A DNA stretch of 64,000 bases from Lentinula raphanica (lineage: Eukaryota; Basidiomycota; Agaricomycetes; Agaricales; Omphalotaceae): positions 283,003-347,002 of the forward strand of contig JANVFP010000044.1 of NCBI GenBank assembly GCA_027919835.1, written 5' to 3'. A program made the position numbers and the translations under genes. The notes under the pieces were generated by a model. It was not told where the DNA came from and made no database searches. It saw nothing but the letters and a program-made list of their open reading frames with translations. Of the stretch, positions 20,925-48,079 are shown piece after piece (the stretch's first letter is position 1; each line of letters starts with the position of its first letter).

Positions 20925-23900
20925 GGTTGGGTCGTGCGTTCAGGTCATGGGTATCCCGGTAGGCGCAGACTATTTTACACCCTTTTACTTTCAATGCCTC
21001 TGTTGTCGTGCTCGTCTATCTTATAGTGTTGCCAAACCAGGCATTTACATAGTTTCTTAAGATTTCCTTTGTTGATACGATATCAAAAATCATATTCTCA
21101 TCTTTCTGCAAGACTTCAGCGAATGGCATTACTTAGTCCGAGAGGAAGAGTGTTCGTTACCAGTCGTTACCCCTAACCCTCACTTGGGGGCCACATGATC
21201 AGATCACTGGTGACCAACGCGCTCTTTCAACCAAACCACTCATCCGATGACCTCGTACTCTGCGTTCAGCACAATCGCTGGCCCACGTATCTTCATTGCA
21301 TTCTCATGTGCTCAAATCAGACAAATTATTAATGGTTTGGCCGCTGCCAGACCATAACCCATTCGACCGTGCAAAAAACCCTAGGAGTGTTTGACAACAT
21401 GAACCTGACGGAGGAGGAAGAGGGAGATAGCCGTGACTTTATGCTCAAATTCGCCGACGCCCAGACTTCATACTCGACTCCTCCAAACGCAATACTACTG
21501 TTGACAACAAAGCAAAAAGTTGGCTTCTAGGGTGGTTATTATGCGTTGGCATGCTCGACCACTCACCATCTGTTAAAGAGGTCATCCAACATGCTCATAT
21601 TCTCCCGGACAACGCTACCAAACCTAACGATCCTGCTGTGAGCATTATTCGCCTTCTGATATTACCTGATATTCAACCAATATGCCAGATCAACTTTGAC
21701 GAATTTTCGTTTGGGATGCAGTATCATTCCTTCAAGTGGTATCCATAGCCGACTTTTTCTGATGCTGAGTGAGTTTTGGTGCACGCCAAATTTGTGTTAT
21801 CGGTGGATTTCAGTTCGGTCAGTTCTACTCTCCGCTATGATCTCGATGATAATCTAACTGTCCTTCCCTGCCTTGATCTCCTTACAATATGAAGATTTAC
21901 TTACGATGTGTATATTCTGCCTGAATTGCCTGAGGAACGGAAGATCTCTGGGCACAAATGCAAGCAGGAGATCTTTTCAGTGAATTTTGAGAATCCTTTA
22001 CTTTTCTCTGTATGGGATTACTGAATCCACTCCTTCAGAAAGACGGCAGTCTTTACAGCTGCTTTGTCGTCCCGCACCCCTTTGTTCTGGAACCCGGTGC
22101 CACCGTATTCAACCAGGAGATTCTCATACACCTGTTTTTTCATGTATCCTCTTGAATGTCTTTCGCACTCTCTGCGTCTGGCAAAACCAAAAACCATATC
22201 TTCCAATATACAATGCTCCTGAATCATTGTGTCCCAATGCGAACCTGCTGCTCACTGCTATCCAACGTCTACCTCACGTACATATCTACGCTACCGAAAT
22301 TGTGTGTGAAATAAACAAAAAATACGGAACTATACCTCTTGTCGAGCGACTGTATGAAAGTAACGAAGGGAAAAAGGGGCAGAATCACTGGAGGGATATA
22401 CTAGGTGAGTTGACTTTTGCAATTGTCGCGCTACAGTGTACAAATCTGTTATTGTGTGACAGACTCGAGCCCACATCTGAAGGTCATCAGGAAAAATACT
22501 TAACACGTGTATTCACAATATTGAAGCCAGCGAAAGAGAAGACCTAGAAGAGGTGGTCTTGTATTTGGCAATGTCTTCACAAATGTTAACTTGCCTTGGT
22601 CTTGATGCCTTTTGTGCAACTTCGAATGCAAAATCTTCAAACCTGACCTTCAAAATCTCAGAACTGCTTTCCATGGCGCAGTTTTTTCGCAGTAATCCTC
22701 AAAAAATATGTCATTCCATCAAGTACTTACATGCCCGCCGGCAATACCGTATCTGCCGGTCTCTGCTCCCCCCAAACTCAAAACCTCAGCATCTTCCCAA
22801 CCACCTCATCAATCCTCCCCGGATTTTTTTTCCTGAGTAGCTAGAACATTATACTAGAGGATGCTGACATAACCATCCTCCCCCGACCTCCCCATCTCCC
22901 GCTATGAATTTTTTGAGAATTTCCAAAAGGTTTTCCGCATATCGCCAGCATCTTCCGAAATACTGCCCCTATCGCGTGTCTCGCCTAACCAAAAACTACG
23001 TCATGCATACGTCTTCCTTCGTCCCAACGTTTACGTCGGTACATCGAGTGCATCGTCCGCAACGAGCGCGTCATCCATTTCCCTCCTATTAGTGGCGTCC
23101 ACTGCAGACCTCAACTACTCCGCGTCCAATCCTCACACGATAACGAGCAGCCAGCAGCTACATGACGTCACGTTCATATCGATATCGTTAGTTCCCACGC
23201 GCTGTCCTACTCTGAACAACCAACCACAAAGCGGACCTCTCTTTCAATCTCTGCCCACCAGCTGCATCCACGCGTGTCCCTCTCGCTCTATCCGTCGCGT
23301 TCACATCGTATGCGACCCCTCCCACCAACTCCAGATTCCACTGAATCCCCTACTCGCTACACCACGCCATCCCCTACTCGCTACACCACGCCATCCCCCT
23401 CTACCCATTCACACATCCCCACTCCTCAAAACTCGTCACGTACGCTACCTTTTCTTGTATCAAAATCAAATCGCTTGACCCCTTCCCCGCAGCGCATTTA
23501 CAATGGCTCCGATCATTAACCAACCTCGCCCCAGGGCCTGCCATTCCCGCGACAACAGTAAACCACCCTGTGCTACTCCAATGTACGCGGTCACCCCATA
23601 CACACGTCCCCAACCAACCCTTCGGGAATAACCCCACATAACCCACTTCTCCAGCCATAACCTCATTGTCCTCAGTCATCCACTCGCCAGAGGCCGGGGT
23701 TATGAAGGGTGAGGGGTGAGCGCAGCGAACCCCGAGCCCCTTCGTCTATCCCGTCTCATAGGTCTCTTCCACGCCTGACACCTCGTACACCTCACATACC
23801 TTGTAGACTATAATTCCCGCTCAGCTCACCTCAATCATTATACATTCCTCACGTACCTGACCGCCTCTTTCCCTTTACTAGCTGTTGAACTGTATCTGTA

Positions 23901-24125
23901 TACAATGCAATATAATACCCTATCAACACCTCTTTATCTTCCCCGATGAAACCCCACTGCCACTCCCTAATACTAACACCGATCCATCGCCGCACCACAT
24001 GACGTCGTTCACGACGTGTGCTAACAATTTGGCCGAAAACCAGGTCAAATTGTTACCACCGATTCCCGCTCACAGGCTGTACCTGTTCACGCCAAGACGC
24101 CACCATTATCCCATTGCCAATTCCA
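20925..24125. other. 3.2 kb without a recognisable gene; edge of the accessory region
   Basis: From here rightwards the metabolic genes stop. A few open frames occur (about 21395-21745, 21987-22547 and 22553-22840), the longest coding 186 residues, but they join poorly and show no domain I recognise. They look like remnants of a decayed gene. Codon-poor, C/CA-rich sequence follows at 22750-23700 upstream of the helicase gene. Near 23700 there is a G-rich stretch (gaagggtgaggggtgagcgc) loosely similar to one inside the telomere-like repeats at 47.3 kb. Confidence 0.35.
23351..23398. repeat. Two perfect 24-bp direct repeats
   Basis: Two back-to-back copies of a 24-base unit beginning tactcgctacaccacgccat. 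No open frame of interest crosses it. Probably a simple slippage repeat upstream of the YR-helicase gene. Confidence 0.7.
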
Positions 24126-27100
24126 ATGCCCCGCATGTACGCTCAACCTTTTGTTCAATCCAAAAGCTGAATCCCCTTACTAGACTTTGCAAACGCCCCG
24201 ACTGTCCTCTACCATTTTCAGGCACCAACCCTCAAGTCCACGAAAAGAATTATCATTCAGCCCGCCATACTATCACCCATGACGGTACATTCACACACGC
24301 GCTTGCATACTCACCCGTTCACTGGCTCTAATTAGGTCACAAAATGGTCGTCCAAAGACGGGAAGATGGCAAGCTTCCTTGTCCCTGTGGCTCAGAAGCC
24401 CATGCACGATACAACTTCCAAAAGTTCACCACCCTCAATCGCCAAGTTCCACACCCTGATTTCGATCTCTCACCTTATCCTGATGATTTGATAACCCACG
24501 AACCCTCCGTCAGAGCCGATCAGCCCCTTCCCCCCGATACACCGGTTCAACCCGTAAGTCCTCCCAGCCCCGCCAACCAGCCATCTGCAGGGACCTCTGG
24601 CGGACGCGTAAACGACATAGATATGGCCGACAGCGACCAAGGTTCGTAAACACCGCATTCACTGCCCACACCCCACTCACACATCTACAGATCCAAACGA
24701 TTCGCGAGACAGCGGCATCGCACACTATGGGGACCACGACCACCATACCCCTGTCGACCCTCTCACAAACTCATTACAATCGCCCCAAGACGTTCTCGCC
24801 TACCTTTCACGGTTCAACATCACCGTCGAACCCACATACTTGCTCACTATATGCACCGAATGTTGTACTCCCGTTTCTTATATCAACATGCGAAAACACC
24901 AATATCGCCAGCATTTTGCTAAAGCCTTTCTTCCCCAGGAGAACCGCCTTCCCTCTGCGGCCACCATTGAACACTTACTGGTCCGCCTTGGCGCCCACGA
25001 ACCGAAACCGATACCCGATGGCGGTATACCTTGTCCCCCCGGGATTAAAACGGTTCCGGGCTACAAATGCTCCATACCGCGTTGTCCTCAACCTGTATAC
25101 GGAGCCGAGCGCACCCTCCGCGCACATTGGCCTCGTTTCCACCCAATGCTATCCATCTCTGATAGGCAATGGACCGACGTCAGTTGTTTCCCTCTTGTCA
25201 CACAACGTAGCGAGAAGACGTACGTCGAAGTCTCTTCTCCATCTGAATCCGTCAACGCGCCCGACGCAATGAAGTACATACAAGCGTCCGCAGACATTTG
25301 TGATCTTCGCTCGCATACCCAAATATTCTCCGTCTCCACTAACGCCCGTCGCACAGCTGATACTGTAAAACTTTTGTAAAAAGTACCGATAAGTTATCGG
25401 GTACCTATTGCAAATAGTTGTGATAACCCGGAGGGGGTCCCGGAAATGGCCCCGGAGGGTGGTCATGCCTGTCACCACCTGTCACATATGGCTTATATTT
25501 ACTGTTTTGGGTAATTAATAATCATCCAGATATTAAATAAGCAGTACATTTTCAAAAAAAACTCGAAAATTCATAAAAATCTATAAAAAACCTAAAATGG
25601 CCTGATTAGGTCAGATCAGGGTATGTAAGCAAATGACCTCATATGATCAAAAATGATGTAGGACCAATGTAGGTACTAAAAATAGCCCAAAAAATTACTA
25701 AAAAGGCAAAAAAATATTTAGGGATGGTATAGAGCCTATTGCAGGTCCAGGCACATCAAAATTACTAAAAAAGGAAAAAATCAATCATGATCTCATCTTG
25801 TAGCAAAAAATCTGAAAAAAATCCTAAAAATAGTCAAAAAATTCAGGGGTGCCTTGTTGGCCCTGAAAATGCAAAATAAAAAAAAATACGCGACAAGTGT
25901 AAAAATTTTTATCACTCCAAATCATTCCAAATCCACTATACAGTCAGTATATATGATGTATATGCTATATTTAGCATCCTAGTACCTTTATTGGGCTAAA
26001 AATAGAACTTGATCTCATCTGATAGCAAAAAATCTGAAAAAATCATGAAAAATACTCAAAAAATTCAGGGGTGCCTCATTGGCCCTGAAAATGCAAAATA
26101 GAAAAATTTACACGACACAATTGAAAAACAACATCACTCCAAATCATACCAAATCCACTACACAGTCAGTATATATCATGTATATGCCATTTATAGCAAC
26201 CCTAGTACCCTCAATCACTTATATCACTCAAGAATCATACCAAACTGAATAATTTGGGGAGTAGATATATTGTACATGATATTTTTAGCACACCTAGTAC
26301 CCTTGATAACTTAGAACAATTTATATTACTCAATATGTTCAGTAGACTTAGCACTTATCACACCTAACACACTAAAACTCATAACAGTACTTATATGTAT
26401 TATACTTAACACAGTTGACAATGAAAATACTCAAAACAGTGTTATCAGTCACTATACTTAACACACTTAACAGTCAAAAAGTCGGAACAATGTTACTTGA
26501 TATACATAACACACTGATTGTTATACTATAACACACTCATAACAACGAGTTTTGGGCGCTTATGGGCGCTTATTTGGTGTTTTTGAGTCGAAATTCATTA
26601 ATAGCACACTCAATAATTTTTGTGTGGGCTCTATATTGTGTAAGGATGTTGTTCATATCATACTACACTTGATACAATCCGGAGAACTCAAGATTACAGC
26701 TTTTGGGACTGGCTATATTGTGAGCTTTTGTGAGATAACAGTGTTTTATGTAAATGTCAATGCATACACCCATGTTATGAAGTCAAACTGCTACTGGGTC
26801 ATGAGAAGAGTCATTCTACAACCTATTCTATGCTAATTCTATGTGATACAGCCAAGAGATCTGTAATGGGGGTCATTGAATATGACATCTATTGTTACAT
26901 GTAAGTGTAGACATCTATAGTGCACATGAAACATGTACATGTATATCACAGAGTCCAACAGTCATAGTGAGTATCTGAACCATGTCCAGACACTTCTAGT
27001 AGACTGTAGGAGTGATTCTTCATGAACCACCATCAGTATACTTGCATTACATGGACATATGCATTGACATTTATATAAAACACTGTTATATTTCAAAAGA

Positions 27101-30100
27101 TCACAATATAGCCAGCCCCACAGGTTGAATTTTCAAGTTCTCTGAATTGTATCTAGAGGAATATGATATATACAATATCCTGACACAGTATAGAGCCCAC
27201 ACAAAAATTATTGAGTGTGCTATTAATGAATTTCGACTCAAAAACACCAAATAAGCGCCCATAAGCGCCCAAAACTCGTTGTTATGAGTGTGTTATAGTA
27301 TAACAATTGTTCCGACTTTTTGACTGTTAAGTATGTTAAGTATAGTGACTGATAACACTGTTTTAAGTATTTTCATTGTCAACTGTGTTAAGTATAATAC
27401 ATATAAGTACTGTTATGAGTTTTAGTGTGTTAGGTGTGATAAGTGCTAAGTCTACTGAACATATTGAGTAATATAAATTGTTCTAAGTTATCAAGGGTAC
27501 TAGGTGTGCTAAAAATATCATGTACAATATATCTACTCCCCAAATTATTCAGTTTGGTATGATTCTTGAGTGATATAAGTGATTGAGCCTGAGGATACTA
27601 GGGTTGCTATAAATGGCATATACATGATATATACTGACTGTGTAGTAGATTTGGTATGATTTGGAGTGATGTTGTTTTTCAATTGTGTTGTGTAAATTTT
27701 TTTATTTTGCATTTTCAGGGCCAATGAGGCACCCCTGAATTTTTTGAGTATTTTTCATGATTTTTTCAGATTTTTTGCTATCAGATGAGATCAAGTTCTA
27801 TTTTTAGCCCAATAAAGGTACTAGGATGCTAAATATAGCATATACATCATATATACTGACTGTATAGTGGATTTGGAATGATTTGGAGTGATAAAAATTT
27901 TTTACACTTGTCGCGTATTTTTTTTTATTTTGCATTTTCAGGGCCAACAAGGCACCCCTGAATTTTTTGACTATTTTTAGGATTTTTTTCAGATTTTTTG
28001 CTACAGGATGAGATCATGATTGATTTTTTAGTAATTTTGATGTGCCTGGACCTGCAATAGGCTCTATACCATCCCTAAATATTTTTTTGCCTTTTTAGTA
28101 ATTTTTTGGGCTATTTTTAGTACCTACATTGGTCCTACATCATTTTTGATCATATGAGGTCATTTGCTTACATACCCTGATCTGACCTAATCAGGCCATT
28201 TTAGGTTTTTTATAGATTTTTATGAATTTTCGAGTTTTTTTTGAAAATGTACTGCTTATTTAATATCTGGATGATTATTAATTACCCAAAACAGTAAATA
28301 TAAGCCATATGTGACAGGTGGTGACAGGCATGACCACCCTCCGGGGCCATTTCCGGGACCCCCTCCGGGTTATCACAACTATTTGCAATAGGTACCCGAT
28401 AACTTATCAGTGTTTTTTACAAAAGCTTTACTGTATCCTGTGCGTCGCAAAGGCGCCGTATTCGCCCAATCCCGCTGGGACTTGGCCATCGATGGCATCA
28501 ATTGTCGTCAAGTGGCCAACACCTCCTCCAAGGCTGTCTATGACACCCTACCTGGACTCGAACGTCTTCCTGTCGTCTGTAGAGACTACTATCAGTACGT
28601 CACCGACCGTATACCCCAACTGTCTATCCTAGTCCGCAGACACATCCTGTCACATAGTCCTAGGTATGTCGCTTTCCTCCACACGTGCGTCTCTAATTCT
28701 TTTCCCAGTAATATAAAGAACAAACCGTTCTCCCGTCCACAAGAACTGGGTACCATTGACAAGGACTCTGATTATGTCGCTCGTTTCATTGCCTTCCTCG
28801 TCTCTCACCACCAAAAACCCATAGACAAGTTTCCTGTACCCCTGCACCCCGAACTCGCCGCTCAGCTCGAAGAGCTAGTCAACCAACTCCAAGAGAAGGA
28901 ACGCTCAACTGAATCCTTCAAGGACCTCATTCACCAGACTGTGTGGCTCATCATATCTCGCCCTAGTCAGCAATTCTTGGAGAACGACCTCCTCTGCCCC
29001 TTCACGCGGTTCCTTATCGCCTCTAATCTCCGCGACGAAGGTGGGTTCTCAAAACCCAATGCTATTACCCCGAACATCGCCAAAGCTCAGTGGGCTTTCC
29101 GCGCCACGGCTCTCGAGCAGATCTTACGAATACAGGGCGACTATGGCCATGACCCCATGCGGTACGTTCTCTGTTTTACCTCTCTCTTTCCCAATCAATG
29201 ACCACCTTCCAGAGCGTACGAACAAGCCGTCAAAGTCTTCATTACAGACACCCATCCTGTCCTCTTTACTACTCTCCGCCAACACATGAGCTTCTTCTCC
29301 GCTTTAGCCTACCGTCAACAAGGGCTTTCCAAGTTCCAGTGGAACATTGAACGCACTGTCCTCTCAATGGATGGCCATCCCATCTCCGTCCAATCTTTCA
29401 TTGACGGAATACAAAACACTTTGACTTGTGTCACCTCTCAGATACACCAACTATTCAGAGGGTGTCCATACGAAGACATCTTACACCTCATCGATCAAGC
29501 TACCATACCAAGCAAATCTGGCCAACCCCGTTGGTTCTTAGACCAAGCATCAAACGAGATGCCGGGTTATTCTTTCTTCGACGAACCCCAGAATGGACTC
29601 CTTGCCCTGCGACCCCGCCTTCTCGAACACTTAATCCAAGATCCAACTTTGTTTTCCCTTTCGCTGAACCCTCCCAAACTCACTTCCCACCATGGTTTGT
29701 GTCCTTCCCTTCCTCATTGCCTCCGCTGAACCCCTTCCAGGCGCCGTCTTCCAGTGGTTCAACGAGCTCGACGAGATCGTCAAAGGGTTATACTATCTCA
29801 TCTGTACTACCTGGGGTGGCGGGGCCCGTGCAACCGAGGTTGAATACACCCTGTATGCCAACTATCCAGACAAGCAACGGAACGTGTACTATATCAATGG
29901 CCTCCTAACCATCGTCACCGAATACTCCAAAACCCAGTCGATAACAGGCGCAGGAAAACTCGTTGCTCGAACTCCCGCTTACCAGGTCAACCGACTACTC
30001 GTTCTCGTCCTCGGACTCGCTTTCTGGGCTGCCGGCTACATCGGATGCCACGTCGGCATGGCGAAGGAGAGTTGCGAGCGCTACTTTTACGAAGTCTTTG

Positions 30101-32599
30101 TCCTCACTGGCCACTCAATGACAAGCAAAAAATTCTCCGATGTACTCGGCTCCTTCAACTCTGCCAACATCGGCGTCAACGCTCGTCAGGCTGACTTTCG
30201 TCAGATGATGGCGTGCATGCTCATATCTGCAACCTCTACCAACTTTTTGGACACCGAAGACGAAGATCCCAACGTCATCGCCGCTCATGAATCTTTTGGC
30301 CACAGTCTAGACACCGGCCGAGCCCATTACGGATTGGAGTCCACTGCCAGTATAGGCCTTGCCCCCGACGCCGTCGCCCACATGCAACAAGTATGTATAC
30401 GCTGGCAAGTCTTCCTCAAGCTCGTCCATCCCGTGTTCCAGAGCTCCCTTCCTGAACAGCCACCGGTATGTCATCCCGTTACTCATTGGTCTACCCCCGA
30501 CTGAACCCATACAGGGCACACTGACCAACTCTCCGTCTGCCAACGCTATCGTGACTGAACTCTTCAAGAACTTTACAAATTCCTTCTCCCACCAGTTTCT
30601 CCAGTTCGAACAACGCACTCAGGCTTTCATGCAACAAGCCATCGAGCACATGGGCACTCAAATCATTGAGCAACTTCGCTCAGTACACAACCTTGTCACT
30701 TATCAGAATTCACGCCGAGCTCCCGTCCAACCATCCGTATACCAGGCTTTGAAAGCCGTTCTCAGACGGAAATACGACCCGCAACTCGGCTTCACCAGTC
30801 CTCAGCAGGCCGAGCTTATCAACAGTGTCGGGAGTTCCTTCCATGTGTTGGGTGTTCTCGAAACAGGCGGTGGCAAAAGCCTAGCTTTTTTTGGCACACC
30901 CTTTCTCTTCCCTGACCATCTATTCATTGTCGTCAGCCCACTTGTCGCTCTCACTGAGGATCTCCGTCGACGGCTCCTCGAGACCAGCATCAAAGGCGGA
31001 GTATGGGGAGACACCTCCTGGGACCCGCATACGGCCCAACTCGTTCTAGTTTCAGCTCATAACGCAGGTACGACAGCGTTCGACCAATGGCTCAAACTGG
31101 CCGCCATCCGTTCCCGCCTCAAACGAGTCTTTGTCGACGAGGCTCACAAAATTGCAACGGACTCTGAATGGCGTCCATGCATCCGTCTCCTCACGCACCT
31201 CACCCGTCATGGGGTACCCCTTACCCTTCTGTCTGGATCACTCATGCCGCGTTCCATCCCAAAGATCCTCGAACTTCTCCATATCACCGACCTTTCTATT
31301 GTTGACGAAATCCGTCGATACACCGGCCGACCCAATCTACAGTACTACGTTGAGAAGATTGAACAGGATGGGTATCTTGACCGCATTCAAGCCTCAGTCC
31401 AATCCGAAACTGCCAAATTCGAACCCCACGATCGCGGTATCATATTTATGAAGACCATCGTCGAAACTGAGCAAGTCAGAGCTTCACTTCGATGTCCTGT
31501 ATACACTGGCCAGATGACAATCGAGCAGAGGCGAGAATCAGAGCTGTGCTGGCGAAGAGGGTTGCGCCCAGAAGACCGTTGGATCGTGGCTACCCAGGCC
31601 TTTGGGCAAGGCGTCGACTACGCCTCCGTAAGGACGGTCATCCACACGGACCCCATGGAGCTCATCAACTTCTTCCAGGAGACTGGTCGCGCTGGAAGGG
31701 ATGGAGATCCGGCTCGATGCTTCTGTTTCTGGACGGAATTACCACCGCCTGCCCCAGACCTGAAAAACGACCATTTAGGCAGAGCTGATATGATCATGCT
31801 CCTACAAACCACTGCATGCATCCGCATGTCGTTTGCCTCACTTGACTGGGAAACTCACTCTTGTCTTGCGCTCAATGCCTCTCCATGCATGAACTGTGAA
31901 AGGCTTTCATTGGTACGTCTCTACTTACACTACTCATTCTCCCCTTCACATCCAACCCAGGTCCCACATGCGGTCGCTCCTGTTGACCTCCCCAATTTCA
32001 ACAAGCCCCTGGTGCCCAATCTCCCAAACGACTCTTCTCAACTTGTCCCCCTCTCCGTCCCCATCAACGCCGCCATGTTGAGTGCCAAATATGACCAAGG
32101 GCTCGAACAGCTACTCCTGTTCAAACGTATACTCGACGATGTCGAGCAATGCGGTTGCCTCGACTGTTGGGTCAAGTGTGACTTTCACAATACAACCACC
32201 ACTCACAAACGACCCTGGGCTTTCGATCCCAGCCTTGCTACCCTCCTCCGCTTGAAAATGAAATCTGGTGATTTCTGGCCGTTTTGTTACAACTGCTGGA
32301 TTCCGTTCCGTGAACCGTATAATCATCCGCCGACTGAACCGTACCAAAAACTCGACCGCGATCGATGTACTCATGTCTGGGATGATCCAACGACAGGGAA
32401 GCTTGTACCTGTCGTACCGACGCTGATCGCTCTGATATTCACCAGTCGACAGCAACTGGTCACAGAAATGGCCCAGAATCTGGGTCAAAAATGGCACACC
32501 ATCGGACTGCTTACAGACTGGCTCCACGAGAAAGTCCAAAGCCCTTCTTCTGCGCCCAATCCTGTCATATTTATCAATTTGTACTTTACCCTTACCTGA
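24126..32599 (+). CDS. Zinc-finger / tyrosine recombinase / RecQ-like helicase fusion, interrupted by a transposon
   Basis: One multi-exon gene of about 1650 codons once the inserted element (25354-28441) is set aside. A 4-codon exon (MPRI) joins LCKRPDCPLPFSGTNPQVHE, a C2H2 finger, then LPCPCGSEAH. Near residues 190-280 are CTECC...HQYRQH and KCSIPRC...HWPRFH, resembling the OrsD (PF12013) finger pair. Residues about 740-980 read as a tyrosine recombinase: WGGGARATEVEY (box I Arg), RQADFRQMMACML (box II Arg; the usual HxxR histidine is replaced), and GHSLDTGRAHYG with His and nucleophile Tyr nine residues apart as in integrases. From about 1000 on comes a RecQ-type helicase: ETGGGKS, VSPLVALTEDLR, VFVDEAHKI, GIIFMK, ATQAFGQGVDYASVRTVIH and QETGRAGRDG. 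A Cys-rich tail (CGCLDCWVKCDFH) ends at 32599. The insertion truncates this copy at about residue 360. Domain order is seen; mobility is inferred. Confidence 0.8.
25354..28441. mobile_element. Palindromic (foldback) DNA transposon copy 1, 3.09 kb, with 8-bp target duplication
   Basis: Non-coding element inserted in the YR-helicase gene. The left arm (25354 to about 26767) is repeated as its reverse complement in the right arm (about 27057-28441), leaving a unique centre of about 290 bases. The ends are cagctgatactgtaaaac on the left and, on the other strand, acaggatacagtaaagc on the right. The first 45 bases differ and the rest of the arms is nearly identical. Flanks are ccgtcgca (25346-25353) and gcgtcgca (28442-28449), 7 of 8 matching, read as a target-site duplication. 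Removing the element with one flank copy restores the reading frame. The outer 120 bases are GC-rich and the interior is AT-rich with long A and T runs. No transposase is coded. An 8-bp duplication fits hAT, P or possibly KDZ-like elements. It lies opposite in orientation to the copy at 37894-40907. Confidence 0.9.
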
Positions 32600-32755
32600 A
32601 AAGCATAAATTAAACGTTCCTCTTCGTCATTCCTAGTCGTCATATTACAATGTCTAAGCCCGATCATATAAAGCCTATGCCTCAATTCTAATCCCTTCAT
32701 TCGCTCGTCTACCTCCTACCACATCCGCCGACTCGTTCACTGACATCCCTCCGCC

Positions 32756-34107
32756 ATGGTTCACAACTGGTAAGACATACTGCCACGCTCCAATATGTAG
32801 CCTGACGCGTCTTTCTAAGCTCCTACTGCTCCTATGTATCTACGTCGCATGCCGACATATCGGACCACATCTTCGAGACACACCATCAAGAAAGTATCAC
32901 CGACCGCCCGGTCCACATGGTACACCAAGGTAAATCCCAATTTATATCTCTTGTCCGCTACCTCAACGTATACAGGTGTCGCCTACCGCCTACACACCGC
33001 CGGTAGGCCAGACAAGTTCGTTTGTCCCTCGTGTAATACCATCGGTTCCAAGGCCGTCGTTTGGGACCATTTCATTCACGCTCACAACTCCAAGGTAGGC
33101 GTCTTCCCCGCCTATCTAACACTTTCTCTCATTCGTCATGCCACAGAGAAAACGCGCAGAGGAGGTCGCCTCGTCTGGCCTCGAACTCGATCCGGTTGTA
33201 CAACGCGTAGCCAAAAAGGCCAAATACAGCGGCCCGTCTCCTCCTATCACCCCTCCTCCGTTCTCTTCATCACCGATGACTTCTTCTTCCGGGTCCTCCC
33301 TCCAACTGCCTTCAAGCCAAACTGCCGCCACGTCTGTTGCGTCTACAAGCCAAACCACGATCCAGCCCTCATTCGATCCCAATGCTGTCGTCCTCGATAC
33401 CCAGCGGATCCTCAAAGACCATAGTCCTACCCACGTCCTTTTCCACTTCCTTCACCATGCTATGTCCCCCATCATTCGCCATTGTGCCTACCATCACGTT
33501 ATGCTCAAATCACACCCCGAGTCACATCACCAGTTGTGGCGGTGTCCTAAGCGCATTTCCCACAAGAACTCTGAATACAAAAAGGAATTCACTATCAAAC
33601 TCGTCGCACAGGACGGGGCCTGCTGCTTCAAGTGCTGGACTCCACAGGATCCCATCTTCCACCATGGAACATCTGGCTGCGACATCGTCGACGCAGACCA
33701 ATGGGAGCAGTGGTGGCGAGCCGTTCCATACCTTGTCTTTCGCACGGAATACCTCCGCACCAAGGTATTCGATGTTCTAGGTATACCCGTCGACACATTC
33801 CCAACCCTACGCTCTTTTGCGTCTTGGTTGACGCTATCCGCTCAAGACACTTCCGACCCGGAATACGATTTCCGTATCACCAACCTAATCGTTTTGGTGT
33901 ACGTCTACTTTCGCTTCTCGACTGAATCTTCTCTGGTGATCGGTACTGGTCTAGTCCTTGACCGTAAGTCTCTTACCTTCTCTTCACCCTTATCATTCTC
34001 ACATCCACTTATCAGGCATCGCGTACGGCAAGGATAAAGGCCCTACGAATGTCGTTGCCTCCGATCCCACTGCTCCTACCAATCCCAGTACCAACTGCTC
34101 CTCCTAG
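32756..34107 (+). CDS. Unknown protein with two C2H2 zinc fingers (family X, intact copy)
   Basis: Starts 157 bases after the YR-helicase stop, same strand. A 4-codon exon (MVHN) is spliced at 32770-32819 onto CSYCSYVSTSHADISDHIFE, which continues with THH, a C2H2 finger. The next exon has FVCPSCNTIGSKAVVWDHFI followed by HAH, a second finger. Then comes a basic, Ser/Pro-rich linker (RKRAEEVASS...KKAKYSGPSPP) with a probable nuclear signal. The conserved body begins at VLFHFLHHAMSPIIRHCAYH, runs through RCPKRISHKNSEY, CCFKCWTPQDP and PYLVFRTEYLRTKVFDVLGI, and ends in a hydrophobic stretch. The last intron (about 33962-34014) leads to a short tail that stops at TAG 34105-34107. It shares this body and the short-first-exon layout with the gene at 37166-41078. 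I do not recognise the family. The location suggests it works with the YR-helicase, perhaps in DNA binding. Confidence 0.65.
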
Positions 34108-35786
34108 AATAGCTTGTGCTCGTCTTCTCTCTCCTGCTTGCCTCAACGAAAGTTTACCCTTTAGACTTCCTTTTTCCTTTTGCTCACCGTTCTCAAAGGA
34201 CCACTGGACCGTGTAACATGTAATATTAGCATATCGCCCCGCCGTCGTTCTCGTAGTTTTGACCGTTGCAGACCCAAGATCCCTTCCCCACCTGTCTTAC
34301 CAAAGGACCACTGGACCAACCCCTGTACTTTTATCTTCCCGCGGACCTTCCCAGAATACCGCATGCCTTCATCTGCTTTCCTCAATGTCAGGTCTGTTAC
34401 CCATGCCCCAGGACTTTCTCTCTGCTTCTCGTTCTCCAAGGACTATATTCCCCTGAATTCACTATCGTTCCATCCATCCCCTCTTCGCTTTTACACGTCG
34501 TACAATCATGCTTTGTTCCGGACTCGCGCTTCTCAAGGACTACTGTAATATCGATTCTCCCTATACCCACCACCTGTTCTCCTTTCCGATAAATTTGTAC
34601 ATACCTAATGCTAAACTCTTCCTGTCCTTACAGAGATGTAGAATGCCATACACGCCTTAAATGGACACTAGGCGCCCGCCTTTAAATTCAGTACCCTCTT
34701 ATTGTGTGATCGTTACCCGACTCGCTCTACAACGAGCCCTGGAATATATCGTGCAGCCTTCATCGACTGGGCATCGCTGTGCGATGAATAACCGTCCTTG
34801 AAGACGAGTACGAAGCTATTCGGAACAATGGCCTGTACTAGTCACTTGGTGGCTGTGTACCGCGTCAGCGTCACTTGACTTGATCATATGACCTTCAACC
34901 AACTCGGTTGATTCACCGCTCCGTTTCTTCTTCTTCCTCCATCCATCCGTCATTACGATGTACAACTCTTCAAATCCACCATTCTCAGGCCCCCTCATAT
35001 CGGCTGCCTTTACTCTGTTCCTACCTCGGGCGTTCCTCACTGCTAAGTTCCCGCCGACATATTAGCCAACACTCGCTTTTACGTTACAAGTAACGGCTAT
35101 TCCACCCTCCTCAAATTGAGCGTTATGCCTCGGGTCTCATCCGAGTAAGTGAACTGCCCGTAATCACCCCTTTTTTCCCCGTTTTCAAGTTTCACTCCCG
35201 TTGTCCCCACATGATCGTACTCAAAGGATTCATCTTTAAGGGTGTCCCCAGCCTGCCCCGATCGGCCCTTGTCGTCACGTCAAAACCCTTTTGAAGCACC
35301 ATCGTTCACACTGTACTATCCGGTATTACCTGTTTTCAACAAACTATCACCTTTCTGCGCAGACCATAGGAGTCGAGTTCTACCCCTAGGACTCCTCCAT
35401 CCCTTAACCTCGGTGGTCGAGTTCCAACCATTCGGGACTCCTACCCATGGGGTCGAGTTCTACCCCTAGGACTCCTCCATCCCTTAACCTCGGTGGTCGA
35501 GTTCCTTCCCTTCGGGACTCCTACCCATGGGGTCGAGTTCTACCCCTAGGACTCCTCCATCCCTTAACTTCGGTGGTCGAGTTCCTTCCCTTCGGGACTC
35601 CTACCCATGGGGTCGCGTTCTACCCCTAGGACTTGCTCTCAATCGAACAATACCCGGTCTCGTTAACTACTTTCCTAGTAGACACCGATCATCGTATTGT
35701 CACAATATTATACATTGTCCACCACGTATCTCATTGAACGTCACAGAAAATAAAAATGGCCCAATTTTGGGCCAATTTCCCTGCTA
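34108..35786. other. 1.7 kb spacer with C/T-rich sequence and a tandem repeat
   Basis: No gene is recognisable. The 16-base segment aaaggaccactggacc occurs twice, at about 34195 and 34304. An 80-bp tandem repeat occupies 35371-35635 (listed separately). The 3' end of the ribonucleotide reductase gene on the minus strand abuts the right edge. Confidence 0.4.
35371..35635. repeat. 80-bp tandem repeat, about 3.3 copies
   Basis: A unit starting gtcgagttctacccctagga recurs at 35372, 35452, 35532 and (with gtcgcg) 35612, an exact 80-base period with few mismatches. Each unit contains cctcggtggtcgagttcc and ttcgggactcctacccatgg. The unit is not a multiple of three, so each reading frame is different in successive copies and a coding role is unlikely. 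Confidence 0.9.
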
Positions 35787-36951
35787 TCAAAAATCTTCGG
35801 GATTATCGCTTTCAGAATGAGGTCAGCAAACGCATTCCGACAGAGACGTTCACGCACAAATCCAAAGCCCTTCCAGCGGCTCCAATACCTTGCCCCACGC
35901 CTGCCTTTGCATATTCGGATACCCGCTTCTCGAAGAAATTAGTCTTGCCTTGCAGGGAGATCAGGTCCATGAAATCGAACGGGTTCGCCGCCGAGTAGAT
36001 CTTGTCCACCCCAAGCGCAACAAGAAGACGGTCGGCTACGAATTCGATATATTGCCGCATAAGTGCAGCGTTCATCCCAATAAGGCTGACCGGCAGCGAT
36101 TCTATACATGGGATGAGATCCTTGTCCAGCATGACGAGAGTAAACCTAACCAGTTAAAAAGGCTTGCTCGATCTGCACCGCCTCGCGAATGATTTCCTGA
36201 ACGATTGCTTGATCTGGACGGCGCTGAAGAAGCCCGAACAGCATACAAGCGAAATCCGTATGAAGTCCCTCATCCCGACTGATGAGCTCATTCGAAAAAC
36301 ACAAACCCGGCATCAAACCTCTCTTCTTCAACCAAAAAATGGCTGCAAAAGAGCCGGAGAAGAAGATACCCTCCACCGCTGCAAATGCAACCAGACGCTG
36401 TCCAAAACATGCTTCACCGTCGCGAATCCAACGCAAGGCCCAGTTTGCCTTTTCCGAAATGGAAGGGATCGTCTCAATCGCGCGGAAGAGCATGTCACGC
36501 TCGGAAGGGTCTTTGACAAACGTGTCGATGAGGAGCGAGTACGTCTCCGAGTGGATGTTCTCCATCATAATCTGGAAACCGTAAAAGCATCTCACTTCCG
36601 CTACTTGAACCTCGTTCGAGAAACGTTCCAGAAGATTCTCGTTGACGATCCCATCCGAAGCCGCGAAAAACGCCAGAACTCTTGACAAGAAGAAACGCTC
36701 ATTGTCGGTAAGCTTCTCCTTCCAATGCGGAATGTCCTTGGACAGATCAATTTCTTCCGTAGTCCAAAATGAAGCTTGCGCGGTTTTGTATTGTTCCCAG
36801 ATCTAACCTTGTGAGCGTAATTTTGGAAACCACTCGTCGCACCCACCTGAGGATATTGAAGTGGAAACAGAACAAAACGCCTTGGTGACTCTTGCAGCAG
36901 AGGCTCTGACTTGGCCGTCAATACCGCCCCATCCACTTCGCGTTTGCTCAC
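35787..36951 (-). CDS. RNR2: Ribonucleotide reductase small subunit (R2)
   Basis: Class Ia R2 subunit that houses the diiron-tyrosyl radical cofactor and, with the large subunit, makes deoxyribonucleotides. Read on the minus strand: [12 protein letters not shown], then [20 protein letters not shown]. An intron (about 44 bases) leads to [20 protein letters not shown]. Further on are [60 protein letters not shown] and [14 protein letters not shown]. Iron ligands (Asp in EEIDL, Glu and His in ENIHSE, Glu in AAVEG, Glu and His in DEGLH) and the radical Tyr (ETYS) are all present. A 49-base intron joins EQAFLT to [12 protein letters not shown] last 49-base intron (35809-35857) yields the C-terminus FDNPEDF, matching the acidic R1-docking tail. 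The gene therefore looks complete. It faces away from the zinc-finger gene at 37166. Whether it is the only RNR2 of the genome is unknown. Confidence 0.92.
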
Positions 36952-37165
36952 CTTCTACTTCCATATATGCGCTTCCTTCTTTAGCTAACAAACTGCTCAT
37001 CTGTAATACACGTCAAGATAGGAAATCCACGGGATGGAGAACCCTACGTCGTATCCAGGTAATAGTTCGGGTGAGAGAAAGGGAACGCCGGACCACCGGA
37101 AATTTCCCACTTCCATAACCCTTCCTCGAACGCTCAACCCCTTTTACTTTCTCCTTCGTTGCACC

Positions 37166-40100
37166 ATGTTCTACCACTGGTAAGCAAACCGTTGTCCTTG
37201 ACTCACTCGTTCACTCATCTCCTGATAGTCCAGTCTGCCCTTTTCGATCCCAAACGTTTGATGAAACGTTCGCTCACAGTCAGAGCCACCCAGAAGTTAT
37301 GCAAGCCCTTCAACAATTCTCTCATCGTATCCAGCTCTTACCCATCTTTCCCTCCTTTGGCGTCAATCCATCGCGTGGGCTCGGTGCCGTCACACTCCTG
37401 GCACGCGCAATGCGACCTGAGGACGTCTTTCGATTCATTCTGTCCTCCATGCAACCTGTTCTTCACACCTGCACCTATCACTTTATCATGCTCGGTCGTT
37501 CCACTGATCACTATGAGATTAAACGATGTAGTTCCCACTACAAACGTATCCTCAACCGTACCTCGGAATATCGACTTGTCTTTCTGCCTCTCATCACACC
37601 CACCCCGTCACTTGACAACAAGTGCAGGAAATGTGATCATCCCCGCTTCCCCATCTACGGTCACTTCACTCCCACTCAATGTCTACGCTCTCCAATCCGC
37701 AACTTGGAATTCTGGAGTGCTTCCACCTACCTCATCTTCCGCACAGCCTACTTACGCAGCGCCGTCTTCACCAACCTCGGCCTTTCAAGCGATATTTTCC
37801 AAGGCAACCTCCAGTCCTATGCCTCCTGGTTGATCCTTCCCGCTCTCGACACTACCCAGCCGGGACACGACGCTATGTTCACGAACATGTCCCACAGGAT
37901 ACAGTAAAGCTTTTGTAAAAAAGACTGATAAGTTATCGGGTACCTATTGCAAATAGTTGTGATAACCCGGAGGGGGTCCCGGAAATGGCCCCGGGGGGTG
38001 GACATGCCTGTCACCACCTGTCACATATGGCTTATATTTACTGTTTTGGGTAATTAATAATTATCCAGATATTAAATAAGCAGTACATTTTCAAAAAAAC
38101 CCGAAAATTCATAAAAATTCATAAAAAACCTAAAATGGCCTGATTAGGTCAGATCAGGATATGTAAGCAAATGACCTCATATGATAAAAAATGATGTAGG
38201 GCCAATGTAGGTACTAAAAATAGCCCAAAAAATTACTAAAAATGCAAAAAATATTTAGGGATGGTATAGAGCCTATTGCAGGCCCAGGCACATCAAAATT
38301 ACCAAAAAAGGAAAAAATTGATCATGATCTCATCTTGTAGCAAAAAATCTGAAAAAAATCCTAAAAATAGTCAAAAAATTCAGAGGTGCCTTGTTGGCCC
38401 TGAAAACACAAAATAAAAAAAAATACGCGACAAGTGTAAAAATTTTCATCACTCCAAATCATCCCAAATCCACTATACAGTCAGTATATATGATGTATAT
38501 GCTATATTTAGCATCCTAGTACCTTTATTGGGCTAAAAATAGAACTTGATCTCATCTGATAGCAAAAAATCTGAAAAAATCATAAAAATTGCTCAAAAAA
38601 TTCAGGGGCGCCTCATTGGCCCTGAAAATGCAAAATAAAAAAATTTACACGACACAATTGGAAAACAACATCACTCCAAATCATAACACAGTCAGTATAT
38701 GTCATGTATATGCCATTTATAGCACCCCTAGTACCCTCAATCACTTATATCACTCAAGAATCATACCAAACTGAATAATTTGGGAAGTAAATATATTGTA
38801 CATGATATTTTTAGCACACCTAGTACCCTTGATAACTTAGAACAATTTATATTACTCAATATGTCCAGTACACTTGGCACTTATCACACCTAACACACTA
38901 AAACTCATAACAGTACTTACTTAACACAGTTGACAATGAAAATACTGTAAACAGTGTTATCAGTCATTATACTTAACACACTTGACAGTTAAAAAGTCGG
39001 AACAATTGTTATACTATAACACACTCATAACAACGAGTTTTGGGCGCTTATGGGCGCTTATTTGGTGTTTTTGAGTCGAAATTCATTAATAGCACACTCA
39101 ATAATTTTTGTCTGGGCTCTATACTGTGTCAGGATGTTGTCTATATCATATTCTTCTAGATACAATTCAGGGAACTCGAAAATTGAACCTGTGGGGCTGG
39201 CTATATTGTGATCTTTTGAAATATAACAGTGTTTTATGTAAATGTCAGTGCATACACCCATGTTTTGAAGTCAAACTGCTACTGGGTTATGAAAAGAGTC
39301 ATCCTACAACCTATTCTATGCTATCTCTATGTGATACAGCCAAGAGATCTGTAATGGGGGTCATTGAATATGACATCTATTGTTACATGTAAGTGTAGAC
39401 ATCTATAGTGTACATGAAACATGTACATGTATATCACAGAGTCCAATAGTCATAGTGAGTATCTGAACCATGTCCAGAGACCTCTAGTAGACTGTAGGAG
39501 TGATTCCCTCATCAACCACCATCAGTATACTTGCATTACATGGACATATGCATTGACATTTACATAAAACACTGTTATATTTCAAAAGATCACAATATAC
39601 CCAGTCCCACAGGCTGTAATCTTGAGTTCTCCGAACTATATCAAGTGTATTATGATATAAACAACATCCTTACACAATATAGAGCCCAGACAAAAATTAT
39701 TGAGTGTGCTATTAATGAATTTCGACTCAAAAACACCAAATAAGCGCCCATAAGCGCCCAAAACTCGTTGTTATGAGTGTGTTATAGTATAACAATTGTT
39801 CCGACTTTTTGACCGTCAAGTGTGTTAAGTATAATGACTGATAACACTGTTTACAGTATTTTCATTGTCAACTGTGTTAAGTAAGTACTGTTATGAGTTT
39901 TAGTGTGTTAGGTGTGATAAGTGCCAAGTGTACTGGACATATTGAGTAATATAAATTGTTCTAAGTTATCAAGGGTACTAGGTGTGCTAAAAATATCATG
40001 TACAATATATTTACTTCCCAAATTATTCAGTTTGGTATGATTCTTGAGTGATATAAGTGATTGAGGGTACTAGGGGTGCTATAAATGGCATATACATGAC

Positions 40101-41078
40101 ATATACTGACTGTGTTATGATTTGGAGTGATGTTGTTTTCCAATTGTGTCGTGTAAATTTTTTTATTTTGCATTTTCAGGGCCAATGAGGTGCCCCTGAA
40201 TTTTTTGAGCAATTTTTATGATTTTTTCAGATTTTTGCTATCAGATGAGATCAAGTTCTATTTTTAGCCCAATAAAGGTACTAGGATGCTAAATATAGCA
40301 TATACATCATATATACTGACTGTATAGTGGATTTGGGATGATTTGGAGTGATGAAAATTTTTACACTTGTCGCGTATTTTTTTTTATTTTGTGTTTTCAG
40401 GGCCAACAAGGCACCTCTGAATTTTTTGACTATTTTTAGGATTTTTTTCAGATTTTTTGCTACAAGATGAGATCATGATCAATTTTTTCCTTTTTTGGTA
40501 ATTTTGATGTGCCTGGGCCTGCAATAGGCTCTATACCATCCCTAAATATTTTTTGCATTTTTATTGATTTTTTGGGCTATTTTTAGTACCTACATTGGCC
40601 CTACATCATTTTTTATCATATGAGGTCATTTGCTTACATATCCTGATCTGACCTAATCAGGCCATTTTAGGTTTTTTATGAATTTTTATGAATTTTCGGG
40701 TTTTTTTGAAAATGTACTGCTTATTTAATATCTGGATAATTATTAATTACCCAAAACAGTAAATATAAGCCATATGTGACAGGTGGTGACAGGCATGTCC
40801 ACCCCCCGGGGCCATTTCCGGGACCCCCTCCGGGTTATCACAACTATTTGCAATAGGTACCCGATAACTTATCAGTACTTTTTACAAAAGTTTTACAGTA
40901 TCAGCTGCATGTCCCTCGTCCTGTACACCTACTTTCTACTCAAATCACGCAACGAGATCCCAGTCCCTCAACACGGACTTTATATTGACGGTAAGCGTCC
41001 CTTGGACTCATTCTAAAACCGCACTCAAGCCAACTTACAGAGGAAGATCCTTGGTTTAGAAACGGTGGCGGAGTGTGA
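37166..41078 (+). CDS. Unknown protein with a C2H2 zinc finger (family X, copy interrupted by a transposon)
   Basis: Paralogue of the gene at 32756-34107. The 4-codon exon MFYH (37166) is spliced at about 37180-37229 onto CPVCPFRSQTFDETFAHSQS, then H, a C2H2 finger. The body reads FRFILSSMQPVLHTCTYHFI, RCSSHYKRILNRTSEYR, NKCRKCDHPRF and STYLIFRTAYLRSAVFTNLG, aligning with the first copy. It is cut at codon DAMFTNMS by the 3.0 kb element (37894-40907). The continuation LVLYTYFLLKSRNEI starts at 40916, followed by one intron and EEDPWFRNGGGV, stop 41076-41078. Removing the element and one target duplication restores the frame. Only one finger is visible, against two in the sister gene. The next gene starts 62 bases downstream. 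Function unknown. Confidence 0.65.
37894..40907. mobile_element. Palindromic (foldback) DNA transposon copy 2, 3.01 kb, with perfect 8-bp target duplication
   Basis: Second copy of the element at 25354-28441, in opposite orientation. It begins acaggatacagtaaagc and ends gttttacagtatcagctg. Both flanks are catgtccc (37886-37893 and 40908-40915), a perfect 8-bp duplication. Left arm is 37894 to about 39255, centre about 290 bases, right arm about 39546-40907. Compared with copy 1 it lacks a few short blocks (for example about 20 bases around 38925 and around 38685). Both copies share the internal direct repeat gggcgcttatgggcgcttat in each arm. No protein is coded; short open frames across the centre repeat in mirrored form and are a by-product of the palindrome. 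Confidence 0.92.
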
Positions 41079-41140
41079 CGTAGACATACATGATGTGACT
41101 TTTCGTGAATGCATGTAACGCTCGTTATTCCAATACTACC

Positions 41141-42578
41141 ATGTCCTTTGAACAAAAATTTGACAACCTCATCGACTCGGCCAAAGATCTCTATTTCCAG
41201 ATCGCCCAACTCGACCCTCCCAGTCAGAACGCTTCTCCAACGTTGAAGAAGAAATTCCACAAGATGGTCCAGACCGTCAGCCAAGCCTCTGGCCAAACGT
41301 ACGACATCGTTATCGGTATGGGTCAGTTGATCGAAGACGAGCACGGTGGGCCGATTGACCCCAAAACACAATACCTGAACCCTCGTCAGCGCTCTCAGCA
41401 GCTACATCATCCTTTGCTAACGCATATATCCAGAAAACTTCCACAACAGCGACAACGAAACTGACGGAGCAGGGAATACTGCTCATAACCAGAATACTCC
41501 CGATCCAGGTGCCAGCCCAGACCAGGACCCACCCAACCCCGGCTCACCCAACCCCAATCAGAGTTCGCCACCTCCAGACGACCCAGCGCACATACAGATT
41601 GCCAACGACATCCTTGCCGAAATTTCACCCGACCGAGGCGAAGTCGTCGGACTCCCTCTCAAAGATTTTCTCAACATGGCCCTCCAAGGTGGCCACAACG
41701 GCAAGGTTCAAGAACAAGAATACGAAGCCTTTCGCCGGTCTGTCCTTGGATATCAGCCTGCCACTTTTGAGGAGATAGTGAGCCGTTTCTCAGCCCAATC
41801 CTTGTCATCCACTCAATCTATTACGCAGAAGAAAATGTTTAGAAACCACAACTCCAAACCCTCGTCTTTGCCCAAGACTGCTCTCCGAGTCCTCCAGCTT
41901 GACGATATCGAAGATGACACGGAGCGTTTAACCCGTCGAGAGCGATACGTCTTCTACGGGTCAAATCAAGACAACGTATCGGTCTATGTATCTACCGTAC
42001 TGCGCAACATCGAAGGAATCAAAGCGTATAAAGACTGGTACAGCCTCCCGCTCGCCTTCAAAAAGCAGTTCCGAAAAGACATCGCCCGCACTCTCCAACC
42101 CCAAGCTTTCCAAGAGCTCGACCGCATGCAAGGAAGGATTACGCCCAAGGAGCTCCAGAAACTGTACAACAAACTCACCAATCCCACACGGAAAAAATAC
42201 GACAAACTCGTGGACCGCCGTAAACGCCTGCTCAAGCTATTTGACGCCGTATGTTTCTCACTGCTCATTGAGTGCTATGCTCACCCTCCCTAGTGCGGCC
42301 CCGTGGTCCTCCTCGATCCCACTTTTTCCAAGATGACTGGACGCGGTCAATATCCGCAACAATCGTCGACGTTCTGTAACGCGCTGGATGAGATTGTTTA
42401 CAGAATCAAAGAAAATCCAATCAGTCCTGACAGACACTTGGCTGGACGACGCTTTGTACTTAGGGCAATGCTGGCCATTGGAGGCACACACGTCGAGGAT
42501 TACGTCCGACACTTTTTAAACAACCATACCTCGCCGGAAATGGCACTTGACTTTGACGATGACTACATGGAAGAATAG
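41141..42578 (+). CDS. Unknown protein, coiled and charged
   Basis: Starts 62 bases after the family X gene, same strand. First exon MSFEQKFDNLIDSAKDLYFQ with LKKKFHKMVQTVSQ. An intron at about 41386-41434 leads to a Pro/Asn-rich linker (ASPDQDPPNPGSPNPNQ). Then comes a mostly helical, charged region: VSVYVSTVLRNIEGIKAYKD, SLPLAFKKQFRKDIARTL, ELQKLYNKLTNPTRKKYDKL and VDRRKRLLKLFDA. A second intron (about 42250-42294) leads to CGPVVLLDPTFSKMTGRG and an acidic end (ALDFDDDYMEE), stop 42576-42578. Predicted length is about 450 residues. I do not recognise a family. Linkage suggests membership of the same gene set as the YR-helicase and the zinc-finger proteins. Its last 16 bases overlap the end of the convergent F-box-like gene. 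Confidence 0.6.
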
Positions 42579-43943
42579 ATACGTTGATACCTATCCCAAA
42601 TCTTGTAACCGTTCAACCAAAACTCTCTCAATCCAATCGAACCCTTGTTTTCTTCAATTTTAGCCAGCAGCAAATTCGCATCCACTGTCCTCTCTCCTAA
42701 TTCGTTGAACTTTAGTCGTATCGGATAATCCCCGCAGATCACATTGTCGCTCTTGAAAAACAATGTCAGATTTTACCAGCGTCGCAGGATACTTCACTCA
42801 CCATCTCGCTTCCGTCTTCCCAATCAACCACAAGCTCCTGTAACGCTGAATATCCGATAAACTCTCTCAGTCTACCTGCACGCTCATCCCCACCCCCTTT
42901 CATGCAGACTTTTACTATGTTCGCGAACGAACCGTACCCATCATCCAAAGAGTCCCATCGATCCGTAATTGGAGTTGAAATCGTCAACTCCCGGACATTA
43001 CACCACGAGTGGCGTAGGCAATTGACAAATGCAAAGGGGACCTCGGCCTTATTGATTTCCATTTGGACCATCACATCACTCTGGTAACTCCCACTCGGCC
43101 CTTTGACGACCAGCTCCTCCAGCCACCTGCAGCTGTTGGCTATCATGACCCCTGAATCCACTGACCCTCGCCCCAAACCCCAAATAGGGTCCTCCTTCGT
43201 GTAGGTCAAGGCGAGGAACTTGACCGATTTGGGGACTTGGTGGAAAAGACGGTAAAGACCCGCCCCTGCCGCCAAGAACAACACCCTGCCATCCACCGTC
43301 AAATCCAGCCGTAAAAGGCCGCCCAGAGCCAGGTGAAGTATGCGAAGAGACACTGTCACACTGTTCGCCACAACCCCGTCTACGCTCAACCCTCTCAGAC
43401 CCTCCAGTTTCAGCGCATGGAACTGTAGTTCCCTTCTGTCTCCTGCGTGAGGAAAAAATGATTCGTCGATGCGGCACCGCACCAGATTCGCCCAGATTGT
43501 TCGTGGGAGCGCAACCGCCCACTCGAGGAACTCACCTCCAAGTCGGACATCGTACAACGAGAGGGTGGAGATCCTGTCGCAATCAACGAGTACGCTGGAA
43601 AAAAGTTTGCCAGTATCGAAATTTGTCGCGAGCGCACTAGAAAGTTCACCCGTATGAGGACGGCCCACGACGACGTGTCGAACCTTCCCCTTCTCCTCCA
43701 ACTCGAGTTCTACGCCGGGTTCGGAAAATTGGACGACGCTCCCCAAGACGTCTAGCGAAACTTGATGAAATTGTCGGCTTGTCAAGCTGAAATGCAAGAC
43801 GCCATCGTCCCTCATCTCCTCTGGGTCTCTGGCCCCACCGTATGCTAAATTGAAAATTTCGAGCAATATTTCACTTGGTATGTCTATCGTGCGCTGTGAG
43901 TACCAAATACATGAGAGTTGTCTCGCTTGATCTTACCAGGCAT
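42563..43943 (-). CDS. F-box-like protein, agaric expanded family (copy 1)
   Basis: A 7-base coding first exon (ATGCCTG, start at 43943) is spliced onto DIPSEILLEIFNLAYGG, which matches the start of an F-box (PxEILxxIF) that would bind Skp1 in an SCF ubiquitin ligase. A long intronless part of about 360 residues follows, with LTSRQFHQVSLDVLG and repeating hydrophobic strands (CRWLEELVVKG, NVRELTISTPI, ALQELVVDW) suggestive of degenerate leucine-rich repeats. A GTGAGT...TCAAG intron (about 42744-42793) joins GSEM to SDNVICGDYPIRLKFNELGE. The end is FWLNGYKIWDRYQ, stop 42563-42565. It is closely related to the next gene (44076-45422), with the same first-exon layout and ending. Target unknown. 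Large lineage-specific families of this kind are common in Agaricomycetes. Confidence 0.7.
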
Positions 43944-44075
43944 GGGCGGGAGATACGTCTTGTGAGAACCCAAATCCACCCAGCCCTACTTATCACCATT
44001 CAAATTAATTATACCGAATTTGACTTGAATCCGATGCGCTTCCAGCGACCATCACACTTGACGTCTACCCTACGA

Positions 44076-45422: not shown

Positions 45423-45605
45423 TATCGCCGTTGCAGTTTGAGCGAATAGAAACCTCGCATGTCCAATATATAGCAAAGCCTGATAGGACAAATTTGACCC
45501 AAAATCGTGCCAAAACTCATGACAGGTCAAGTTTGGATAAACCTATTCTTTGCGCTTAGGCAATCGGGTCCTGTCACGAAAAATGTTTCTAATACTATCG
45601 ATCCT

Positions 45606-47450: not shown

Positions 47451-47556
47451 GGATATCTTCATTTTTGAAGAAGTTAGAAATGGAGAAAATGTCATGTGAT
47501 ATTCTTACAAGTCATGACACATCACAGGTGCGGACTAACCGTCCCGAAAATAACCC

Positions 47557-48011: not shown

Positions 48012-48079
48012 GTTGTAGTGCCCCGATGCAGTTACAACTATCTTATTCAAAAAAACAGATAGTAGGATCCCTTCGCATT

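Follow-up and report, generated by a model that had tools for sequence, protein, structure and literature searches.

The window, by which we mean the whole 64-kb stretch of DNA that was analysed, is the end of a Lentinula raphanica contig (C44, 347,002 bases) from a genome of 49 Mb in 75 contigs. It contains a large repeated block, and the first gene of the block encodes OrsD-like zinc fingers, a predicted tyrosine recombinase (YR) domain, and a RecQ-type helicase. Some of the exons were placed with the help of a partial NCBI protein from Lentinula raphanica (P0001). The features are:

22724..61208, + strand: repeated block, present at about 99% identity where contig C4 begins and where contig C51 ends; the window's two palindromes are not shared at these sites
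22724..23030, + strand: the element's left end (TACTTACATGCCCGCCGGC...), with matches at 10 loci in this genome
24344..24641, + strand: exon 1, coding; equals residues 1-99 of P0001 via the C4 copy, from which the coordinates were transferred
24691..25353, + strand: exon 2, OrsD / C2H2; Pfam match at 24825-25142; cut by the palindrome
25354..28442, no strand: near-perfect palindromic DNA transposon of 3.09 kb, inserted in the gene, with a 7-base target duplication CGTCGCA (25347-25353 = 28443-28449)
28443..29162, + strand: exon between OrsD and YR; no known family matched
29214..29694, + strand: exon preceding the catalytic domain; probable core-binding part, judged from its position only
29741..30465, + strand: exon with the predicted YR catalytic domain; Arg 29827, Lys 29929, Arg 30199, His 30301, Tyr 30328 (first base of each codon)
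30515..31912, + strand: exon with the RecQ-type helicase core; Pfam DEAD at 30800-31234 and Helicase_C at 31418-31705
31961..32599, + strand: last exon, Cys/His-rich C-terminal tail, ending at the stop codon
37893..40907, no strand: a second palindromic transposon of the same family; its 7-base target duplication is CATGTCC

An earlier reading, made from the sequence alone, had placed the fused domains at 24126-32599. We rejected an intact gene over this span, as the 3.09-kb palindrome, which that reading had missed, splits the OrsD exon from the rest. The palindrome is absent from the corresponding site in the C4 and C51 copies of the gene. Furthermore, P0001, which is 99% identical across the YR region, runs from OrsD over the palindrome site and through YR, and stops about 37 residues into the helicase exon. 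Because the C4 and C51 copies lack the insert and P0001 reads across the site, we consider the gene to be a single unit that is broken in the window. The window's copy, split by another transposon, is probably non-functional.

The proposed order of domains held up better. The C2H2 part that precedes the recombinase is indeed OrsD-like (Pfam OrsD, 1.1e-6), and the YR exon continues in frame into the helicase exon, although the intron between them (30466-30514) has 49 bases and not 50 as first reported. The helicase is RecQ-like: it matches Pfam DEAD and Helicase_C, and its best match among PDB sequences is a RecQ (8.8e-22). The match to TIGR00614 (9.9e-33) falls below that model's cut-off.

The recombinase domain and its homologues

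Three recombinase landmarks, with the His and Tyr nine residues apart, had been proposed for this exon. All of them are present in that order and at that place, and there is a catalytic Lys as well. The first Arg (29827-29829) lies within GGGARATE, the Lys (29929-29931) within EYSKTQ, and the second Arg (30199-30201) within DFRQ, while the His (30301-30303) and the Tyr (30328-30330) both lie within GHSLDTGRAHYG; we checked their spacing of nine residues in the window. The predicted structure of the YR region matches tyrosine recombinases, which is the fold that the sequence-only reading had put up for checking.

We also sought a proof by sequence profiles that would link the domain to known YRs, and this failed. 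Models from Pfam, PHROGs, and NCBIfam gave no YR match for the domain, and neither did a search against PDB sequences. An hhalign comparison to a Cre-type profile gave 4.8%, which is not significant (box I and the Lys region do pair). Searches with a model of the whole 982-residue structure did not recover YR either; single domains of large models can score weakly. Because no family model that we searched recognizes the domain, it appears to be strongly diverged. By its active site and its predicted fold it is probably a member of the YR superfamily, but not one that curated models recognize.

All of our homologue searches used the YR region as the query, and they gave 47 proteins, 30 proteins, and the best 120 of 438. 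The alignment has 187 rows (186 distinct proteins and the window) and 431 columns. Given this query, the presence of the domain among the homologues is by construction, but the conservation of the five catalytic residues is not. Of the 173 rows with residues at all five sites, 170 have the complete set of R, K, R, H, and Y; the other three have one substitution each, and 14 of the 187 rows lack at least one position. (In an earlier subset of 43 rows, the counts were 43, 42, 42, 42, and 43.) The five columns rank 2, 3, 4, 6, and 7 in conservation among the 431 columns across all 187 rows, so the motif set is not due to chance. Thus the Arg, Arg, His, and Tyr whose invariance had been in question are conserved, and so is the Lys. 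Together with the predicted fold, this conservation supports a recombinase module in a single chain with OrsD and RecQ.

The rest of the chain is often found in the homologues too. Of the 186 homologues (partial entries included), 127 have a Walker A motif after YR, 3 have one only ahead of YR, and 56 have none; many homologues have precomputed OrsD and helicase domains. Named members are from Lentinula, Marasmius, Collybiopsis, Moniliophthora, Armillaria, Desarmillaria, and Hygrophoropsis. Other members, among the matches listed, are from Fusarium, Colletotrichum, Botrytis, Metarhizium (including M. rileyi), Claviceps, Trichoderma, Hirsutella, Purpureocillium, and others.

Within this genome, copies of the family are found on six contigs, each within 50 kb of a contig end. 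The copy on C48 is 48% identical; its catalytic exon is open, and of the five pieces in which it aligned, the first contains one stop. A relative on C19 is just 24% identical, yet its YR region is open and, by eye, all five catalytic residues are present. C19 also carries a second OrsD match in inverted orientation.

The repeated block and its left end

The block is at least 38 kb long. Insertions aside, the identity of about 99% begins at 22724-22730 and extends to 61208 against C4 and to about 59595 against C51, while 61209-64000, which reaches the contig end, has no match of about 99% elsewhere in the genome. The left flanks of the three copies are all different. Besides the gene, the block contains a gene for the ribonucleotide reductase small chain and the two palindromic transposons. 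We note that over 4.15 kb the C4 copy and the window's copy differ at 15 gap positions, which may be an assembly error near a contig end.

Of the 10 loci that match the left end, 8 have edges no more than 10 bases apart, close to (C)TTACATGCCCGCCGGC or TTCACC(A/G)TGCCCGCC; the matches on C9 and C48 begin about 25-46 bases further inside. About 85 bases of flank are common to C21 and C46 and formed a single alignment with the element at 76%, so we do not count these two as independent, and the 8 edges have seven different immediate flanks. All 10 left ends face the nearest contig end, and 9 of them are within 100 kb of it, but the facing is partly trivial because the contig breaks in or near the block at five of the 10 loci. 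The motif TTACATGCCCGCCGG occurs with up to 2 mismatches at 33 places, as compared to 22 for a reversed control, so it is informative only at 0-1 mismatch. At that level there are 6 places, of which 5 are known left ends.

The gene reads inward from the left end and starts 1614 bases inside it in the window. On C41, where the protein is 62% identical, it starts 1667 bases inside. Because the same arrangement is seen on C44 and C41, the gene and the left end stay together over this divergence. On C46, C9, and C48, we found no relic of the gene in the 4 to 5 kb scanned downstream of the left end.

We did not find a right end: DNA searches with three parts of the block gave long matches of about 99% on the same three contigs only. 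Outside of these contigs there was one further match at about 99% (534 bases at the start of C41), and the remaining matches were to shorter or more distant repeats (for example, window 61719-63999 at 80% inside C4 and C19). Also, no contig was found to have the distal part of the block at about 99% without the left part. The confinement of the distal part to three contigs would be compatible with a terminal duplication as well as with an element that is too long and too repeated to assemble. An empty site was not found either, as the window's left flank is single-copy except for two matches of about 190 bases at 75-76%. As for telomere repeats, there is no exact (TTAGGG)4 at the contig ends, and its only occurrence is inside C1. 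The C51 copy has a degenerate CCCTAA array as its left flank, and a TTAGGG-like array lies inside the block; the orientations of these arrays do not tell one simple story.

A candidate recombinase of a subtelomeric element

We propose that this gene, most likely of the telomere-linked helicase (TLH) kind, whose protein combines OrsD, YR, and a RecQ-type helicase, acts as the recombinase, or “captain,” of a large subtelomeric mobile element. We would put the probability of this at roughly 0.6. The proposal builds on what was established directly: the domain order, the predicted YR fold, the catalytic residues, the left end at 10 loci, the gene's position on C44 and C41, and the differing flanks. 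In this mechanism, the zinc fingers would locate DNA, and YR would cut the element's left end, the putative recombination site, and rejoin it with the target via a covalent Tyr-DNA intermediate. The helicase may open or copy the DNA. Such a recombinase-helicase would join a large element to target DNA through its left end, and it would presumably also choose the target. The sequence-only reading had suggested a self-contained DNA mobiliser. This remains plausible: there is a shared left end with the gene first and reading inward, but the right end and the empty site were not found.

If the YR is active, it might instead be domesticated and serve the host in recombination or in maintaining chromosome ends, with copies that spread passively by exchange between subtelomeres. 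A role in telomere maintenance has been proposed in the parts of the TLH literature available to us (PMC10532341, PMC12857005). Also, the three copies at about 99% are at contig ends, and the distal part never being found at this identity without the left part is what a terminal duplication predicts. On the other hand, simple homologous exchange does not join one left edge to seven different immediate flanks, and insertions have disrupted both the window's copy and the one on C51. Furthermore, Agaricus bisporus var. bisporus lacks subtelomeric RecQ genes and, in the portion of the report that we drew on, has no apparent telomere abnormality (PMC7473861). We consider this explanation to be unlikely.

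It is far less probable that the helicase does the work and the YR is a structural relic that only binds DNA. A non-catalytic YR-like fold has a precedent in Ndc10, and the domain, which no family model recognizes, has diverged strongly. Nevertheless, all five catalytic residues, including the Tyr, are among the seven best-conserved columns, and, by eye, they persist in the distant C19 relative. About as improbable is that the gene merely travels in an unrelated subtelomeric element, such as a Helitron-like or other transposon, whose own enzyme sits elsewhere in the block. The block does hold other genes and transposons and has no right end that we could find, but the gene keeps its place as the first one inside the left end in both diverged lineages, and no other recombinase or transposase was recognized in ten ORFs (nine from the block to the contig end and one in the left flank, using Pfam only and ignoring introns).

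Returning to the captain-like reading, it suggests that TLH-type genes that carry a hidden recombinase may drive mobile DNA instead of doing housekeeping. More broadly, the TLH-type genes of the Dikarya could encode the recombinase-helicase fusions of selfish elements that form a pan-fungal class and join chromosome ends via a fixed left end that the recombinase recognizes, instead of being helicases for telomere maintenance. The structure of subtelomeres in many fungi would then be a product of this class. We offer this only tentatively, and we would bet slightly against it.

RecQ-like genes that adjoin telomeres have been known in fungi since 1998. For their function and means of spread, a recombinase fused to the helicase, with its active site intact, would give a concrete mechanism that can be tested, as changing the Tyr to Phe should abolish it. 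A recombinase could explain why one segment is found at many chromosome ends in a single orientation, and the annotation of TLH-type genes would change. A fusion of a recombinase to a helicase would also extend the YR-driven elements of eukaryotes.

Comparison with known systems

The sequence-only reading had contrasted the architecture with helicases described as telomere-linked or RecQ-like. We disagree: most likely it is that very family, with a domain that went unrecognized. The gene has the sequence features of TLHs (a RecQ-like core and OrsD), and we assign the class from published descriptions. As far as those excerpts go, it shares the core and OrsD, and probably multiple copies near chromosome ends, with the TLHs of Magnaporthe, Metarhizium, Ustilago (UTASa/UTASb), Fusarium, and Agaricus bisporus var. 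burnettii, but it has a YR between OrsD and RecQ, and the same excerpts name no recombinase. In the passages available, OrsD is reported for a recQ gene of Metarhizium (PMC11457142) and for UTASb of Ustilago (PMC10532341), while no domain beyond the helicase core was found in the subtelomeric RecQ proteins of Agaricus bisporus (PMC7473861, which also traces the description of such genes adjoining telomeres back to 1998, in Ustilago). In the portion of a 2025 paper on Fusarium oxysporum that we could consult, TLHs are called host genes and the word “recombinase” is absent (PMC12857005). Nor is a recombinase in TLH proteins described in the literature that we searched (titles, the starts of abstracts, and passages, with preprints and most subscription papers outside the scope), so we are not certain of priority.

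Colletotrichum higginsianum has three related families of subtelomeric repeats (DHX_G198, DHX-chim_G203, and DTX-chim_G199; 11.3-18.5 kb) that, by description, encode a helicase and DUF3505 and have the same orientation relative to the telomere (PMC5576322, consulted in part). No tyrosine recombinase is reported for them: “tyrosine” occurs 0 times in the main text as available, and the “integrase” of one family is attributed to an inserted retrotransposon (PMC5576322). Our homologue search found YR-bearing members of the family in other Colletotrichum species.

Crypton proteins are short, often have a GCR1-type domain, and are not known to have a helicase. We found no Pfam match to a GCR1-type domain, or to DUF3435, in the scanned ORFs of the window or in 7 homologues. 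Cryptons are, according to the excerpt used, eukaryotic DNA elements that are moved by a YR (PMC3212892), and in this they resemble the element that we propose.

Starships resemble the element in layout. Their captains read inward, as the gene does here. Also as here, the YR gene opens a large element at its 5' end, at least in the passage that we relied on (PMC12289983). Eight Starships were reported in the basidiomycete Tremella fuciformis in the text available (PMC13066641). This genome has a separate DUF3435 match at C3:1683013. Our element differs from those led by Starship captains in that its YR is fused to RecQ and OrsD, it is located at contig ends, and no right border was found. As judged from its sequence, it is not a Starship by the DUF3435 criterion, although its left end is laid out alike.

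Palindromic transposons and a larger insertion

Near-perfect palindromic (fold-back) DNA transposons of about 3.1 kb each make up one family with three sites, at which the target duplications are 7 bases. Their termini are CAGCTGATAC / CACAGGATAC.

Window 25354-28442, palindromic transposon copy
Window 37893-40907, palindromic transposon copy
C51:161463-164559, palindromic transposon copy

In the copy of the repeated block at the end of contig C51, the exon that encodes the recombinase catalytic domain is interrupted by an insertion of about 10.8 kb. The ends of this insertion (CCAGCTGATGCAG) resemble those of the palindromic family, and it may be the autonomous partner of these smaller transposons. 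The part of it that we scanned contained one ORF of at least 250 amino acids, without a Pfam match.

Other contents of the repeated block

Window 36146-36802, gene for a ribonucleotide reductase small chain within the block, on the minus strand (Pfam, 3.4e-92)
Window 33120-34037, ORF downstream of the YR-helicase gene
Window 37119-37907, ORF downstream of the YR-helicase gene

By eye, the ORF at 35812-36153 looks like a continuation of the reductase gene. The two downstream ORFs, also judged by eye, are similar to each other and have a Cys-rich, WP-like pattern in common with the YR-helicase tail; a Pfam scan of both gave no meaningful match. They are possibly accessory genes of the element. 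The block also contains a degenerate TTAGGG-like array (window 47245-47440), and clusters of such repeats are found at the corresponding positions in the C51 and C4 copies.

Other sequences in the genome

A second repeat, distinct from the first element, has a sharp left end of its own (ATTACCCTGTCCTATATAG).

C51:142108, second repeat
C34, about 1.1 kb, second repeat
C21, about 1047646, second repeat
C19, about 24979, second repeat

Like the first element, it is oriented toward contig ends. On C34 and C21 it cuts the left part of the first element, at a point that differs between them.

This same basidiomycete genome has a match to DUF3435, the Starship-captain family (C3:1683013-1683561, E 4.9e-12).
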